This document shows positions 12,609 to 21,411 of a stretch of DNA of 64,000 bases, piece by piece. Numbering within the stretch: position 1 is the first letter of the stretch; the number at the start of each line of letters is the position of its first letter. Below the pieces are notes generated by a model. That model did no database searches and was not told the DNA's origin. It saw only the letters and a program-made list of their open reading frames with translations. The stretch lies in NCBI GenBank assembly GCA_037482015.1, contig JBBFKT010000001.1, forward strand, positions 463,854-527,853, in the 5' to 3' direction. A program made the translations under genes and the position numbers. The stretch is from Thermodesulforhabdaceae bacterium (GTDB lineage: Bacteria > Desulfobacterota > Syntrophobacteria > Syntrophobacterales > Thermodesulforhabdaceae).

Positions 12609-12790
12609 TTATTTCCTTTGTGTAAAAATCAAGGGGTTGTTGTGGATGTATTGGCGGATGGCGTTCATCACCTGTTCAGTGCGGATAATGTGTTCGTAAT
12701 AATTGCGTTGCCAGATTAGCACGCTGGGTGTCCCGCGATATTGGTTGGTGTGACTGGTAACGGCAGATTTGAACCCAGCAATGAATCGGT
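12609..12790 (-). pseudogene. C-terminal fragment of a REP-associated tyrosine transposase (RAYT)
   Basis: About 60 residues ending in a normal stop match the C-terminal end of RAYT/Y1 transposases: an AGFKSAVTSHTNQY region, then WQRNYYEHIIR, then IRQYIHNNPL. The catalytic N-terminal half with the His pair and Tyr region is missing. Upstream the frame runs into unrelated palindromic repeat DNA at 12787-12856. This is a dead remnant. The open frame can be extended to 12875, but that extension only translates the repeats. Confidence 0.75.
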
Positions 12791-12856
12791 CGCCGAGGAC
12801 GGCGACCCTCCCAATATTTTGACACCGTTTTCGGGGAAACGGTGTCCTCGCCGTCC
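12787..12856. repeat. Nested inverted repeats abutting the transposase fragment
   Basis: Three overlapping hairpins are visible. GTCGCC-gaggac-GGCGAC lies at 12789-12806, and GACACCGTTT pairs with AAACGGTGTC at 12821-12846. GGACGGCGA (12797-12805) also pairs with TCGCCGTCC (12848-12856) around the second hairpin. The block is much more G+C-rich than its surroundings, consistent with inserted repeat DNA. Confidence 0.7.
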
Positions 12857-12860
12857 GTTT

Positions 12861-12888
12861 AAATGGGCGACGCATGCGTCGCCCCTAC
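12861..12888. repeat. REP-like palindrome (GACGCATGCGTC core)
   Basis: A member of the dispersed 28-bp family. The right arm GTCGCCCCTAC is intact, the core GGGCGACGCATGCGTCGCCC is a perfect palindrome, and the first four bases of the left arm have decayed. It sits between the transposase fragment and the intron relic. Confidence 0.8.
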
Positions 12889-12898
12889 ATGCGCATTA

Positions 12899-13069
12899 AA
12901 AGGTGACGGTGGAGAACCGGAGCGAGAAGTCAGCAGATGCCGTAGTAGCTGCCTCCAGAGGCAACCACAAGAGGTCGCCCCTACACTTCTCGAACCACCC
13001 GATGCGGACCTGCATGCCGGGCGGTGTGGGAGGGACTCAGTTAGGTAAACTAACCGCCTCTATCCCAAT
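12899..13069 (+). mobile_element. Group II intron relic (internal deletion)
   Basis: The left part reads GTGGAGAACCGGAGCGAG, then AGTCAGCAGATGCCGTAGTAG, which I recognise as leader DNA common near the start of bacterial group II intron reverse-transcriptase regions. The right part, from about 12991, has a domain V-like hairpin (GAACCACCCG pairing with CGGGCGGTGTGG, with a 2-nt bulge). A second hairpin AGTTAGGTAAACTAAC and an end close to CTATCCCAAT, like an intron 3' terminus, follow. The reverse transcriptase is deleted, and a half REP palindrome (GGTCGCCCCTAC, 12973-12984) lies at the junction. This is recognition from memory of typical intron ends; a covariance-model search would settle it. 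Confidence 0.5.
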
Positions 13070-14127: not shown

Positions 14128-15303
14128 ATGAGAAAAAGGAATGTGTTTTATGTGTTAGTTTTTTTTATCCTGGTGTCAGTTGGTTTCCTGTGGCTATTTC
14201 ACAGGAAAAAACCTCCCATAGTTATTGGATTTATGGGTCCCCTTACCGGAAAATACTCTGATCTGGGTGTTTTAGGCAGAAATGGTGCAATGCTTGCTGT
14301 GGAGGATGTCAATGCTGAAGGTGGTATTAATGGGCACCTTTTAGTGCTTATACCAGAGGACGATAAGGGCACTCCGGAAGGCACAAAGGAGGTTTTTCAA
14401 AAGTTACGGGATGCTGGAGTTGTGGCAATTGTTGGGCCTATGCTCAGCACAAATGCTGTCACCCTAAAACCTTTGATTGACGATGCCCGGTTAGTAGCTG
14501 TAAGTCCTACTGTTTCAACGTCAAGGCTTTCTGGATTGAAGGATTATTTCTTTCGGGTAATGAACGATAACAAAACGCGGGCTCGGGGGCTTGCTCAGTT
14601 TGCCATTGAAACCTTGCCAGAACCTCCTAACCCACCGAGACTCTGGTGTCTCGTTTACGATATAGGCAATTGGGAATATACATCTGATTTTATAGAAAAT
14701 TTTGTGACTACCGTTGAAGTTCAAGGAGACCTTACAGCATACCGTGTTGCTTACCTATCAAAAAAAGAACTGATTCCAGAAGAAGTCTTTAAGTCTATTG
14801 AAGTAGTCAAGCCAGATGTCATAGTGTTAGCTGTATCAGCCATAGATGCTTCTCAAATAATCGGTTGGCTTGCAGATAATTTCCCGGATATTCCTGTTTT
14901 TGCTGGAGCCTGGGCGATGACCCCGGAATTGATATCCCACCTTCCATATATATTTCATCGAAATACTGTCAATGTTTTTGCTGAACATGTCGCACCTCCT
15001 GAGAATATTAGAGAAATTCAAAGTTTTGAGGATCGGTTCAACAAACGATATGGCAAGAAGATGGCTTTCCCTGCATTGTATGCCTACAATGCTGTTAGGA
15101 TTCTTGCCAAGGCGCTCAAGGAAAATGGTGGGAAGGTCGAGAAACTGAAAGAGACCCTCTCTTCCGGTATAAATTGTGATTGTATTTCAGGGAAAATTTT
15201 TGTTGACGAATTTGGGGATTGTTATCATCCATGGTGGATTTACAAATTGGAAAAGGATGGGCCTAAATTTGTCAGGGAGGTTCTTCCACAATGGCAGAAG
15301 TGA
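14128..15303 (+). CDS. Periplasmic ligand-binding protein (branched-chain amino-acid type) paired with a sensor kinase
   Basis: A type I periplasmic-binding fold (Peripla_BP_6) of 391 residues. After a single N-terminal hydrophobic segment it reads IVIGFMGPLTGKYSDLG and GAMLAVEDVNAEGGINGH, the usual opening of Leu/Ile/Val-binding proteins. AIVGPMLSTNAV and the later NDNKTRARGLA hinge region follow. It has no lipobox and may remain membrane-anchored. I start at ATG 14128 (MRKRNVFY), since the longer frame uses a TTG without a site. No ABC permease or ATPase gene follows. Instead the stop overlaps the start of a hybrid histidine kinase by 13 bp, so the protein probably acts as the periplasmic sensor for that kinase. 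Confidence 0.8.
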   Translation: MRKRNVFYVLVFFILVSVGFLWLFHRKKPPIVIGFMGPLTGKYSDLGVLGRNGAMLAVEDVNAEGGINGHLLVLIPEDDKGTPEGTKEVFQKLRDAGVVAIVGPMLSTNAVTLKPLIDDARLVAVSPTVSTSRLSGLKDYFFRVMNDNKTRARGLAQFAIETLPEPPNPPRLWCLVYDIGNWEYTSDFIENFVTTVEVQGDLTAYRVAYLSKKELIPEEVFKSIEVVKPDVIVLAVSAIDASQIIGWLADNFPDIPVFAGAWAMTPELISHLPYIFHRNTVNVFAEHVAPPENIREIQSFEDRFNKRYGKKMAFPALYAYNAVRILAKALKENGGKVEKLKETLSSGINCDCISGKIFVDEFGDCYHPWWIYKLEKDGPKFVREVLPQWQK

Positions 15304-17926
15304 AAAAGCCTTCTCTTTCCAGCATTGTTAAAAAATATATATTTTGGTGGAATATAGCTATTCCAAGTGTGATCCTTAGTATTACTATAGTTCTGATGAT
15401 TTTTCCTCAAATTCAAATCCTTAAAGATCAAATGACTCACAAAGCTAAAATATCTTCAGCAGTGGTTCAGGATTATTTTGATGATGCTTTCAGGCTAATT
15501 CGAGTTTATTCCACCAGTTTAAATGTTCGGGAACCGAGTTCATTTTCCATAGAGTACTTCATGGTAAGTCGCTATTTTCACCATATGTTTGCTGTGAACA
15601 AAAGCAGTCACGATGTCTTGGAACTTGTTTCGCCGCTTGGCGCAGTTAAAGGTCGTTTTTTTTTCATTCTTCCTTTCCACCATCAAAACTTGGAAACATT
15701 AACATTATTCCGCCTTATTACTCCCCCGTTTCCAAAACGATCACTCTAGGGATTCGATATGATAATCATCCGGATCACGCTATCATTGGTGAAATCGACC
15801 TCGAAAGGTTGTGGAATTTTGTCCAATCATCCGTAAGATTTCCCGATCAGCTGTTTTTGGTTGACGGGTTCGGCAATTACCTAGCCCACACAGATTACGC
15901 CAAGGTTTATAGACAGGAAAACATCAGTGGCTACAGATGGTTTGAAAACAAAAAGTTAATTTCTTACTTTACCATAGGATATTACGAAAATTCCCTTTTT
16001 TTCATAGCAGGTTATTACAATCCCACAGTTGGTATATGGTCTATAGTGCTTACTCCATTCTGGGGCATTATAAGACCAACTTTATATGCAATCAGTTGTT
16101 TAGCGATTTTTGGAATGTGTATGGTGATTGTTTTCCAAAAATCGACTAAAAGCTGGATAACTAAGCACTTTATAATGCCTCTTGATCTGTTTTCCAGCTA
16201 TGTGAAGGGAGAAATCAGCAGTAAAAATAGAGATTCTGTGATGATCAAAGGGTTTTTCCCCTTCCGCGAAGGGGAAATTCTGGAGGAAAGTTTCAGTCAG
16301 GCTTTTATAGAAAACTACGAATACCAGAAAGCTCTCAGAGAAAGTGAAGAAAAATTTCGGCTAATTGCAGAAACTGCACCAATTGGTATTTTTATATTCC
16401 AAGATGACCGTCTCGTTTATGCAAACAAGTTTGGGTCTGCCATATTGGGGTATTCCGAGGATGAATTATTTAACATCGTGCCCTTCTGGAAACTTGTAAA
16501 AGAGGAATATCGTGATGTGGTAGCCTATAACGCCACAAAAAGACAAAAGGGGATTCTCAAAGATGTTGTCAGTTATGAGTTCCCAACAAAGACAAAAAAC
16601 GGCGAAGAAAAATTTGTAAGGGTTTCTGTTAGTTCTATCTTATTCAGAGGAAAACCAGCCGGTATTATCGTAATGGCGGATGTAACGCCTTTCAAAAAGG
16701 CGGAAGAAGAAAAAAGGCATTTGGAAGCCCAGCTTGAAAGAACCCAGCGGCTTGAATCTTTAGGAACTCTCGTGGCTGGTATTTCTCATGAGTTTAACAA
16801 CATATTGCAGGCAATAGCTCTAAATATCGAACATTTGTCTTCGAAGTTAGCAGAACTTCTTGGAGAAAACGATTTCTGGCGGAGGCATATTAAAGATGTA
16901 ACCGTTCTTCAGCACAGAGCAGGAAATATTGTTAGAGAACTTCTTGCATTTGCCAGATCACAGCGAGGAGAGAAAAAAGAGTTTTCGCTCAAAAAGGAAA
17001 TAGACAGAGTGGTGAGATTGAGTCGTCAGGTATTCCCGCGATCTATAGAAGTTAAAGTTAGGTTTGAAGGAGATGATTTCACCGTTATTGCTGAGGAAGG
17101 TCAACTAGAACAAATTTTTCTTAACCTGCTGAACAACGCGAAAGACGCTATTGAAGCTAAAGAAGAAGGCTTTGGAGTTATCGAAATCATAATCGAACCT
17201 ACAAACATTGATGATATCTCTGATGGATCTGATTTGGTTGTGGGAAGATATGCAAAGATAACTGTGAGAGACAACGGTATTGGGATGGGGCCAGAGACGA
17301 TAGAAAGAATTTTTGATCCCTTTTTTACTACTAAACCTGTGGGTAAAGGTAGTGGTTTAGGTCTTTCGGTCGTTTACGGCGTTGTTAAACAGCTCGGTGG
17401 AGGCATTTCCTGCGAGAGTCAGCTAGGCAAGGGCACCAGGTTTACTTTGTTTTTACCAGTTTATCGAAGGAAAGAATCAGCAAGGGTAGAGCTGGAAAAG
17501 GTAGATGAAGAAAAGCTTGAAAGAATCAGGGAAGATAAAAAGTCTTTTAGACCGTTAAGAATCCTGTTTGTTGAAGATGAACCTGCTGTGAGAGATCTTA
17601 TGGCAGAGTTTCTTCGTAAAGAAGGTTACGATGTGGATAAAGCCTCAGATCCGGAGGAGGCTCTTAAATTCATTGAAAGTTCTTCCTACGACCTGATCAT
17701 AACCGATCTTGGACTTCCAGGCATTGGAGGCGAAGGTTTGCTGAAAGAAATAAAGTCAAAAGGGATAAAAGTGCCAATAATAGTTGCAAGTGGGTATTTA
17801 CATGGTAAAGTTCTTGAAAATCTCGAACGTTATGGAGTGGTGCTCTCTCTAACTAAGCCCTTTACCATATTGGCTCTTAAAGAAGCGATCAAGAAGGTTG
17901 AGGAAAAACAGAGGGGAATCAGCTAG
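15291..17926 (+). CDS. Hybrid sensor histidine kinase with PAS and receiver domains, frameshifted
   Basis: Reconstructed across a frameshift, this is one protein of about 880 residues. It has a membrane helix ([17 protein letters not shown]), a periplasmic sensor domain, a second helix ([15 protein letters not shown]) and a PAS domain from about [18 protein letters not shown]. HisKA follows with phospho-acceptor His in GISHEFNN. The HATPase then has N-box [10 protein letters not shown]1 DNGIGMG and G2 [11 protein letters not shown], and a receiver domain (FVEDEP, phospho-acceptor in [10 protein letters not shown], conserved Lys in LTKPF) ends the protein. Frame one stops at 15749, and the second frame is open from at least 15660. 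The two join smoothly if one T is added to the nine-T run at 15656-15664. Whether the break is real, slippage-corrected or a sequencing error is undecided. Confidence 0.8.
15656..15664 (+). other. Nine-T run at the kinase frameshift
   Basis: Reading ten T instead of nine carries the frame from [13 protein letters not shown] directly into [13 protein letters not shown] and on to [12 protein letters not shown] with no stop. A homopolymer of this length is a typical site for indel errors, slipped-strand mutation or transcriptional slippage. Confidence 0.8.
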
Positions 17927-18136
17927 GTAGGTTAACTGGTTTTGTTTTCGTGTTGCTTTTTTAGGTTGGGTAAATTAAAAACATTTTTGCTTTTCTCAAG
18001 CTCTGCCACGAAGGCAGCATAATTTTATATCAGCGTTTTTCCTTAAAATTCCTTAATTTTTCATGTTTGAAGAAACTCCGAGTCAAGAAGGCTCAAGATG
18101 AAGTTAAAGGCTTTTTATGCATTGAGGAGGTGAATC

Positions 18137-20095
18137 ATGCAGAAGGAAAACTTTGTGCTGGTTTTGTTTTTAGTTTGTTTTTACGCTGTCTCTTCATACT
18201 TTTGTCCATGCCTGGCTTACGAAAATGATGCTGGGGAACTTACCACCATTCTGGTCACCGCAACGCCCATAATTGAAGGCAATGAGCGAGATCGGTATGG
18301 TAGTGAGAAAACCATTGTCAGTGAAGAGCAAATGGAAGACCTGAATGCTCAGGATCTCAGCACTGCCCTGAGGCGTACCCCCGGGGTTAACATTTCTAGA
18401 TACAACATGATTGGAGCTTTTGGGGGAGCAACAGGAGGAGGTATTTTTATCCGGGGCATGGGGGCAAGTAGACCAGGGGCAGAGATAAAGACTTTTATAG
18501 ATGGAGTGCCCATGTTTATGAGCGTCTGGAATCATCCCCTTCTCGATCTTATGTCTATCGATCCTGCTGAGTCCATCGAAGTTTACAAAAGCCCTCAGCC
18601 ATATATGTTTGGAAACGCCCTTGCTGTGGTAAATATTGTGCCCAGAGTAAAGACAACAGAGGGCTTCGCTACTAAGCTTTCCTTTTCTGGAGGGGCTCAC
18701 GAAACCTATATTGCGAAGGGCGAACAGGGGGGCAAGGTAGGACAGTTTGATTACTATCTCGGCGGTGGATATAAGACTTCAGATGGGCATCGGGAAAACT
18801 CGGACGGCGAACTCAAGGATTTCTACGGAAGGATTGGATATCAGCTAAGCGACGAATGGCGAGTTTCTCTTTTTGGCTTTCGAACCGACAATTACGCCGA
18901 TGACCCTGGTGTGGAAGGTAAACCGTCCACCAGATTGGGAAGATACAGGACTAAGGCCTGGCTCGGTATAGCCACGATCGAAAACAAATATCCTGTGGCC
19001 GAAGGCTATCTAAAACTTTATCGAAATAGTGGCGATGGGGATTGGCTCGACCAGCCATCGAGTTCCAAAGCTGGTCTCAAGGAAAATCTTTATAACAATT
19101 TCCTGTTTTATGGCGTGAAGGCTCGCGAAACCTTCCACCTTTGGGAAGGTGGAGAAATAGTTACAGGGTTTGATTGGGACTACACCGACGGTAACTACAA
19201 CAAAACCTTCACTGATGGGACTATCGATGTATGGAATGGGCACGATTACGATATTATTTCGCCCTACGTAGCTATTAGCCACCAGTTCGGGAAAAAAGAT
19301 GGTTTTTACTTAATACCGTCTGCGGGCTTTAGATATTACGACCACTCCGATTTTGGATCGGAAGTAGCTCCCCACGCTGGAATTGTCGCCGGTTATAAGG
19401 ATACCATCGTTCATGTGGGATACTCCAAAGGGATACTGTATCCGGGGCTTGACGTAGTGGTTGTTTCAGAAAAAGTTAATCCTGCCTTGAAGACAAGCTG
19501 GCAGGATCTCAATCCGGAAAAGATGGATCATCTGGAAGTTGGGCTTAAACAGTCCTTTTTTGATAAACGTTTGGATCTAGACGTGACCTGGTTTTACAAC
19601 GATGGTAAAAACCGATACATTATCGTTCCTCCGCCTCCACCCCCACCTCAATATGCTAACATTGGAGAATACAGAACAAAGGGTGTTGAAGTATCCATAA
19701 CGGCTAATCCTACGAATAACATTTCGACTTTCGTAGGAGTTACTTTTCTGGACAAAGATCCAGAATCTACCCCTTATGCTCCCGATATAACTCTTAGTGC
19801 CGGTGTTAACTGGCGGTTTTTAGATAACTTCAAGCTAAGCGTGGACTGCCAGTATGTGGACAAAATGTATGTGGACACTAAAGCCAGACGCCTGGGAGCT
19901 GTAAACACGGCAAACATCGACAGCTACTTTTTACTTAACGGAAAACTTAGTTATCAACTGCCTCTTCCAACTAAACGGGTGCAGGGGGAAGTTTTCCTTG
20001 CTATCGAAAATCTTACTGACACAAATTATGAATATTATCCAGGTTATCCCATGCCCGGCACAACCTGGATGATAGGAGGAAAAGTGACTTTCTAA
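18137..20095 (+). CDS. TonB-dependent outer-membrane receptor
   Basis: A 22-stranded barrel receptor of 652 residues that imports a chelated metal, cofactor or other solute with TonB energy. It has a signal peptide ending near CLAYENDAG, then a TonB box TILVTA close to the mature N-terminus. The plug domain follows (LSTALRRTPGVNISR, GIFIRGMGASRPG, VYKSPQPYMFGNALAVVNIV), then barrel strands ending in Phe (WMIGGKVTF). A run of seven prolines sits in a surface loop near residue 505. The ribosome-binding site GAGGAGGTGAAT is strong. I saw no cobalamin or other known riboswitch upstream. The methyltransferase 25 bp downstream is probably co-transcribed. Substrate unknown. Confidence 0.9.
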   Translation: MQKENFVLVLFLVCFYAVSSYFCPCLAYENDAGELTTILVTATPIIEGNERDRYGSEKTIVSEEQMEDLNAQDLSTALRRTPGVNISRYNMIGAFGGATGGGIFIRGMGASRPGAEIKTFIDGVPMFMSVWNHPLLDLMSIDPAESIEVYKSPQPYMFGNALAVVNIVPRVKTTEGFATKLSFSGGAHETYIAKGEQGGKVGQFDYYLGGGYKTSDGHRENSDGELKDFYGRIGYQLSDEWRVSLFGFRTDNYADDPGVEGKPSTRLGRYRTKAWLGIATIENKYPVAEGYLKLYRNSGDGDWLDQPSSSKAGLKENLYNNFLFYGVKARETFHLWEGGEIVTGFDWDYTDGNYNKTFTDGTIDVWNGHDYDIISPYVAISHQFGKKDGFYLIPSAGFRYYDHSDFGSEVAPHAGIVAGYKDTIVHVGYSKGILYPGLDVVVVSEKVNPALKTSWQDLNPEKMDHLEVGLKQSFFDKRLDLDVTWFYNDGKNRYIIVPPPPPPPQYANIGEYRTKGVEVSITANPTNNISTFVGVTFLDKDPESTPYAPDITLSAGVNWRFLDNFKLSVDCQYVDKMYVDTKARRLGAVNTANIDSYFLLNGKLSYQLPLPTKRVQGEVFLAIENLTDTNYEYYPGYPMPGTTWMIGGKVTF

Positions 20096-20789: not shown

Positions 20790-21411
20790 GTAGGGGCGAC
20801 GCATGGGTCGCCCCTACGTGAGATGCACAACCGCTGAATTTACGCCATTTCGCCTTGATCACGAGAGCTTCGCGGACTCAGTCCCGCTCGCCCTGCTACA
20901 AACTCCCTCCCCGTTGACGGGGATAGCCGGGGATGTGTCCGGTTCTTGTTCATCGGCTCGCAGTTTCGTTCCAAGCTTTCTCCCCACACTCGGTCACCCT
21001 CGTGTAGTTGCGCTTCACTTAGCTCGCTGTGATCAACTCACGGGAGGACTCTCACCTCCAAGAGCACGTCCATGCCGGGCGCACCCAATGTAGGGGCGAA
21101 AAATTTTTCGCCCCTACTGCACAACCGCTGAATTTACGTCATTTCGCCTTAATCAAGAGAGCTTCGCGGGCTCAGTCCCGCTCGCCCTGCTACACACTCC
21201 CTCCCCGTTGACGGGGAGGGCTGGGGAGGGGTCCGGTTCTTGTCCATCGGCTCGCAGTTTCGTTCCAAGCTTCCTATCCACACTAGGTCACCCTCGTGTA
21301 GTTGCGCTTCACTTAGCTCGCTGTGATCAACTCACGGGAGGGTTCTCACATCCAAGAGCATGTCCATGCCGGGCGCACTAAATGTAGGGGCGACGCATGC
21401 GTTGGTCCTAC
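20790..21411. repeat. REP array: three palindromes alternating with two 294-bp direct repeats
   Basis: Two tandem units (20824-21117 and 21118-21411) of exactly 294 bp align along their whole length at roughly 90% identity by eye. Each ends in a GTAGGGGC-type palindrome (21090-21117 intact, 21384-21411 with a decayed right arm), and a third palindrome (20790-20817) precedes the first unit. Within each unit is an internal hairpin CCCTCCCCGTTGACGGGGA and a G+C-rich segment ending in CATGCCGGGCGCAC. Short open frames here are not credible genes. The block fills most of the 900-bp gap between the methyltransferase and queF; I see no gene in 21412-21631. Confidence 0.85.

Follow-up and report, generated by a model that had tools for sequence, protein, structure and literature searches.

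Previous studies have shown that bacterial tracts of nine A or nine T provoke slippage (PMC5009743, PMC1088944), and that T runs of nine or more, on which RNA polymerase is documented to slip in bacteria, require no extra signal (PMC1088944, PMC5009743). In Shigella flexneri, the two overlapping ORFs of mxiE are fused by an inserted U, which gives a longer, active product (PMC1088944). In Citrobacter rodentium, tssM1 is interrupted while its orthologues are whole, and slippage on an A11 tract rescues the gene and yields two length variants (PMC4256274). Frameshifts at long poly(A) are tolerated in insect endosymbionts, because slippage corrects 12–50% of transcripts (PMC5009743). In 2005, Baranov et al. 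surveyed genes with 9A/9T tracts and placed in a weaker class those that are split and have single-ORF homologues elsewhere. Their stricter, conserved class held 9A sites, 6 of 7 of them from IS elements, and included one conserved candidate outside IS elements, at 9A (PMC1088944).

Here, we analyse a window of 64,000 nucleotides from a Thermodesulforhabdaceae bacterium (genome G000), in which a run of nine T interrupts a sensor kinase gene. The features of the kinase locus are:

14128 to 15303, + strand: solute-binding protein of the Peripla_BP_6 family, 391 aa from ATG 14128 (Pfam PF13458, E=8e-36)
15291 to 15749, + strand: kinase ORF1, 152 aa, with the N-terminal hydrophobic segment and the first half of the periplasmic sensor region
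15656 to 15664, + strand: run of exactly nine T, the frame-transition site
15650 to 17926, + strand: kinase ORF2 frame, open for 758 codons, with the rest of the sensor, the second hydrophobic segment, PAS, HisKA, HATPase_c and receiver
18137 to 20095, + strand: TonB-dependent receptor (Pfam PF07715), the conserved 3′ neighbour of the kinase

The nine-T split is real as a sequence feature, as originally predicted. Stops in the second frame (TAA, 15647–15649) and in the first (15747–15749) confine the frame change to 15650–15746, and the 28 codons of ORF1 that lie 3′ of the run form an out-of-frame tail. One extra T, or a −1 ribosomal slip, joins the two frames; losing two T also works. Both pieces align in order with one protein, the 867-aa kinase of a sister species in the same genus (G001; the MAG SKW214, Syntrophobacterales bacterium), which rules out a chance pair of ORFs. 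The ORF1 piece matches residues 1–119 of that kinase (E=4e-17, about 25% identity; this part is fast-evolving), and the ORF2 piece is 52% identical over 748 aligned residues. Similarity stops near position 15647 in frame 1 and resumes near 15671 in frame 2, about 25 nt later, and the T9 run is the sole homopolymer within this interval. The claim that one added T restores a continuous sensor kinase is thus borne out.

So is the claim of full downstream domains. PF00512 (HisKA), PF02518 (HATPase_c) and PF00072 (receiver) exceed Pfam gathering scores in the ORF2 frame, as does PAS_8 its Pfam cut-off, and by its combination of HisKA, HATPase_c and receiver the predicted product is a hybrid histidine kinase. 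The run falls between the two hydrophobic segments, which would locate it in the periplasmic sensor region; ORF2 taken alone would lack the N-terminal anchor. An AlphaFold model of the sensor region of the sister-species kinase (mean pLDDT 50) was too poor for use. The end of the solute-binding protein gene and the start of the kinase overlap by 13 nt, and the order solute-binding protein, kinase, TonB receptor is the same in both genomes, the two receptors being 74% identical. This linkage (14128–20095) suggests that the kinase senses the solute of the receptor, and the solute-binding protein is likely the partner of the kinase sensor.

The sister-species gene is the only other orthologue among the 59 genomes searched, and no copy from another strain was matched in plasmids, viral contigs or the rest of the genome collection. 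It is a single uninterrupted ORF with no T run at the corresponding site. The split is specific to the present lineage, and the comparison gives no sign of selection for the split itself; nor can the ancestral T count be read from a gene that lacks the run and differs in length.

How old is the kinase split? Downstream of the run, 753 codons are free of stops, where 87.5 stops would be expected per substitution per site. The probability of finding none is 0.07 at 3% neutral change and 0.013 at 5%. These figures imply that the split is recent, that the frame past the run remains in use, or that the sequence is in error. Together with the intact PAS_8, HisKA, HATPase_c and receiver domains, they exclude an old pseudogene, in agreement with the original prediction, which had seen no decay.

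A rival explanation is replication slippage. The length of the T tract may vary between cells, in which case the assembled sequence would represent a heritable OFF state (phase variation); alternatively, the gene may carry a recent null mutation and be heading toward a pseudogene. The stop-free frame is compatible with a split as old as about 3% neutral change, and the split is specific to this lineage, both in line with such an origin. Nine T is short for a contingency locus, which is a point against phase variation. T9 tracts are hypermutable in replication too (PMC1088944).

Homopolymers are the usual place for consensus errors, and the true DNA could have ten (or seven) T and encode an ordinary kinase. 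As a control, every A/T run of at least nine in the genome was located by pattern search and then read in context. The frame state of each was judged by an ORF-geometry test; an earlier codon-usage classifier was too weak and had missed the kinase itself. About half of these runs are intergenic or at gene edges. The clear coding A9/A10 runs are all in frame (7/7: L046, L047, L048, L049, L050, L058, L059). Three T9 runs lie on the sense strand of coding regions: those of the kinase, of a glycosyltransferase gene (L052) and of a YscK-like gene (L060), the last being in frame. Two of the three thus split otherwise intact genes, and both do so in the same direction. No out-of-frame coding A8 or T8 run was found among the sites examined, which for T8 comprised most of the first 100 of 207 in the genome. 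Two candidates from an automatic scan (the T8 in L065 and the A8 in L088) proved to be adjacent genes rather than splits, as did the A8 in L157, where the genes share an ATGA overlap. Since the other clear coding runs examined, apart from that of the glycosyltransferase, are in frame, homopolymer errors are not a general property of this assembly, and the nine T's are probably real in the DNA.

Within the window, no further gene was clearly split among the long ORFs. T runs of at least eight are rarer than expected (6 observed, 20.4 in dinucleotide shuffles), which agrees with the avoidance of slippery runs described by Baranov et al. (PMC1088944). Intact genes contain T9 runs as well, five in the sister-species genome and one in the present genome, so a T9 run by itself is no proof that slippage is used. 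The intact gene of the present genome, on the minus strand of L060 (G000:C8), encodes a YscK-like type III secretion component (PF06578), with its in-frame T9 at 2001–2009 and a T8 at 2303–2310. Slippage in this gene would be expected to give truncated products. Such products have been reported for some Shigella secretion genes.

Of the two split genes, the glycosyltransferase, a GT4 family member to which the kinase led, makes the stronger case and the more interesting one. Its features, in the coordinates of L052 (G000:C3:116230-120230) and L119 (G001:C22), are:

L052:1587-2713 (G000:C3:117816-118942): GT4 gene of the present genome, upstream of an ABC-transporter ATPase gene
L052:1587-2012: first piece, an ORF of 141 aa
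L052:2002-2010: T9 run at which the gene is split
L052:2000-2713: second piece, an open frame of 234 codons
L119:1084-2216: GT4 gene of the sister species
L119:1501-1510: T10 run at which that gene is split

By Pfam, Glyco_transf_4 occupies piece 1, with its end opening piece 2, which also holds Glycos_transf_1. The two species are split at homologous codons and shifted by the same one base: AGA ATT TTT TTT / (T)TA ACC GCT in the present genome and CGA TTT TTT TTT / (T)TA ATC GCC in the sister species. The difference between T9 and T10 is an ATT to TTT substitution (ATT TTT TTT TAA versus TTT TTT TTT TAA), not an indel, and a TAA stop directly follows the run in both. Three more distant members of the family, from other genera (G003, G002, G004), encode the enzyme in one ORF. 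At the equivalent site G003 reads TAT AAG TTT TTT TTC TCA, and the joined products of the two split genes align with it gap-free; in the present genome the predicted junction reads RIFFLTAF.

Between the two species, the first halves of the GT4 protein are 46% identical and the second halves 55%. The corresponding dN values are 0.52 and 0.36, with dS saturated or near-saturated (for the second halves, about 2 or saturated). In the second halves, strong similarity sets in with the very first post-run codon, 5′ of any start usable for re-initiation. Unless the two genes were broken independently and recently, this means that ribosomes have read the second halves as continuations of the first ever since the species parted. 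The GT4 split fits an inherited recoding event, most simply transcriptional slippage, in two genomes of which one is a MAG, and its run is a candidate conserved transcriptional slippage site.

These observations bear on both of the explanations raised above for the kinase. A shared frame state whose tract lengths differ by substitution is unexpected for a switching tract. Because the sole comparable gene, GT4, is in one and the same frame state in both species, phase variation is less well supported for the kinase, and replication slippage, with or without switching, seems to us possible but somewhat unlikely. Recurrence of the GT4 split in a separate assembly, a MAG of another species, argues in the same way as the in-frame coding runs against a consensus or assembly error, which we regard as quite unlikely. 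Of the three options in the original prediction, then, transcriptional slippage is strengthened by a second gene that is split at T9 in the same way and keeps this split in a sister species, and a general homopolymer consensus problem loses ground, since other coding A/T runs of 8–10 are in frame.

A further option, absent from that prediction, is −1 ribosomal frameshifting, which would make the identical fusion when a U9 mRNA is translated. The relevant features at the kinase run are:

15659 to 15665, + strand: T_TTT_TTC heptamer (U_UUU_UUC in the mRNA), a slippery sequence of the X_XXY_YYZ type, in register for a −1 slip
15690 to 15735, + strand: weak 8-bp hairpin, UUGGAAAC / GUUUCCAA, lying 24 nt 3′ of the heptamer, with a loop of about 30

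A −1 slip here would give a protein identical to the product of a 10-U mRNA, with the predicted junction sequence RFFFHSSF. The GT4 genes of both species similarly have U_UUU_UUU followed immediately by a UAA stop. RNA folding found no stimulator at about 5–9 nt from the kinase heptamer. The hairpin there (−7.0 kcal/mol, z −2.8 for 80 nt) is too distant and too weak for a classical stimulator, and the 161 nt around the run fold no more stably than shuffled sequences (z +0.6). In the GT4 genes, a stable post-run hairpin in the sister species (z −2.3) has no counterpart in the present genome (z +0.6). As no RNA stimulator is consistently present, transcriptional slippage is preferred to ribosomal slippage, and we consider the latter very unlikely at the kinase. 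Re-initiation was also considered, and is unlikely in either gene. The earliest ATG, GTG or TTG in the kinase ORF2 frame is a TTG at 15809, 60 nt past the ORF1 stop. In the second GT4 frames the first starts are TTGs at non-homologous places (L052:2039 and L119:1632).

For the kinase, we think there is about an even chance that the T9 run is a recent change and that full-length protein is still partly made by transcriptional slippage. RNA polymerase would slip on the tract and produce a mix of U9, U10 and other transcripts. Those with U10 would fuse the frames and encode the complete hybrid sensor kinase; those with U9, the majority, would encode a 152-aa truncated membrane piece. Three things are presumed here: slippage does take place at the run in the bacterium concerned, the run is a recent change to a formerly intact gene of this lineage, and the level of full-length kinase is of consequence to the cell. 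A bolder proposal is that, in this genus, slippage on long T runs is a regular means of adjusting how much of a stable chromosomal protein is made; the GT4 split would pre-date the separation of the species and the kinase would have joined later, to give a permanent mix of truncated and full-length sensor. On present evidence, we think this rather unlikely.

Transcriptional slippage at the kinase would have clear parallels among the systems described above. Like mxiE, the kinase consists of two overlapping ORFs from which an inserted U gives a longer product (PMC1088944); mxiE, however, is an experimentally proven regulator of a secretion system, whereas the hybrid histidine kinase is known from sequence alone. 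Like tssM1, it is an interrupted gene with a whole orthologue, and the slippage rescue and two length variants seen there (PMC4256274) are what we propose here, with the difference that tssM1 has an A11 tract and both of its forms were shown to be needed, while the kinase has T9. Insect endosymbiont genomes are very AT-rich and reduced, in contrast to the present genome of 2.7 Mb and a window of about 44% GC. The kinase combines a run of at least nine A/T at its frame transition with a fused product homologous to a single-ORF protein. It is, as far as its sequence tells, a new instance of the weaker class of Baranov et al., and the GT4 gene belongs to the stricter one (PMC1088944).

No histidine kinase or glycosyltransferase that uses transcriptional slippage was found in the titles and abstracts of the open-access papers retrieved. 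If the proposed slippage is correct, two genes that annotation pipelines would label pseudogenes are working genes, and the conserved GT4 gene is a rare case of a poly-T slippage site that different species have inherited in a bacterial gene outside mobile elements. cDNA from the two loci would then show, quite simply, to what extent ordinary proteins are rescued or dosed by slippage. A version of the run broken by synonymous codons is TTCTTCTTC.

Finally, we also observe several repeats elsewhere in the window. Two 276-nt direct repeats, 92% identical, lie at 20824–21393, and each has an Rfam match to group II intron domains D1–D4 on the minus strand (20904–21003 and 21103–21297). No intron-encoded protein was seen at these repeats. 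Copies of a 45-nt repeat that bears a palindrome (GTAGGGGCGACGCATG...) frame the pair. At 12609–12905, an 88-aa ORF without a match in a Pfam search resembles the end of a REP-associated transposase and adjoins another GTAGGGGCGACGCATGCG-like palindrome.
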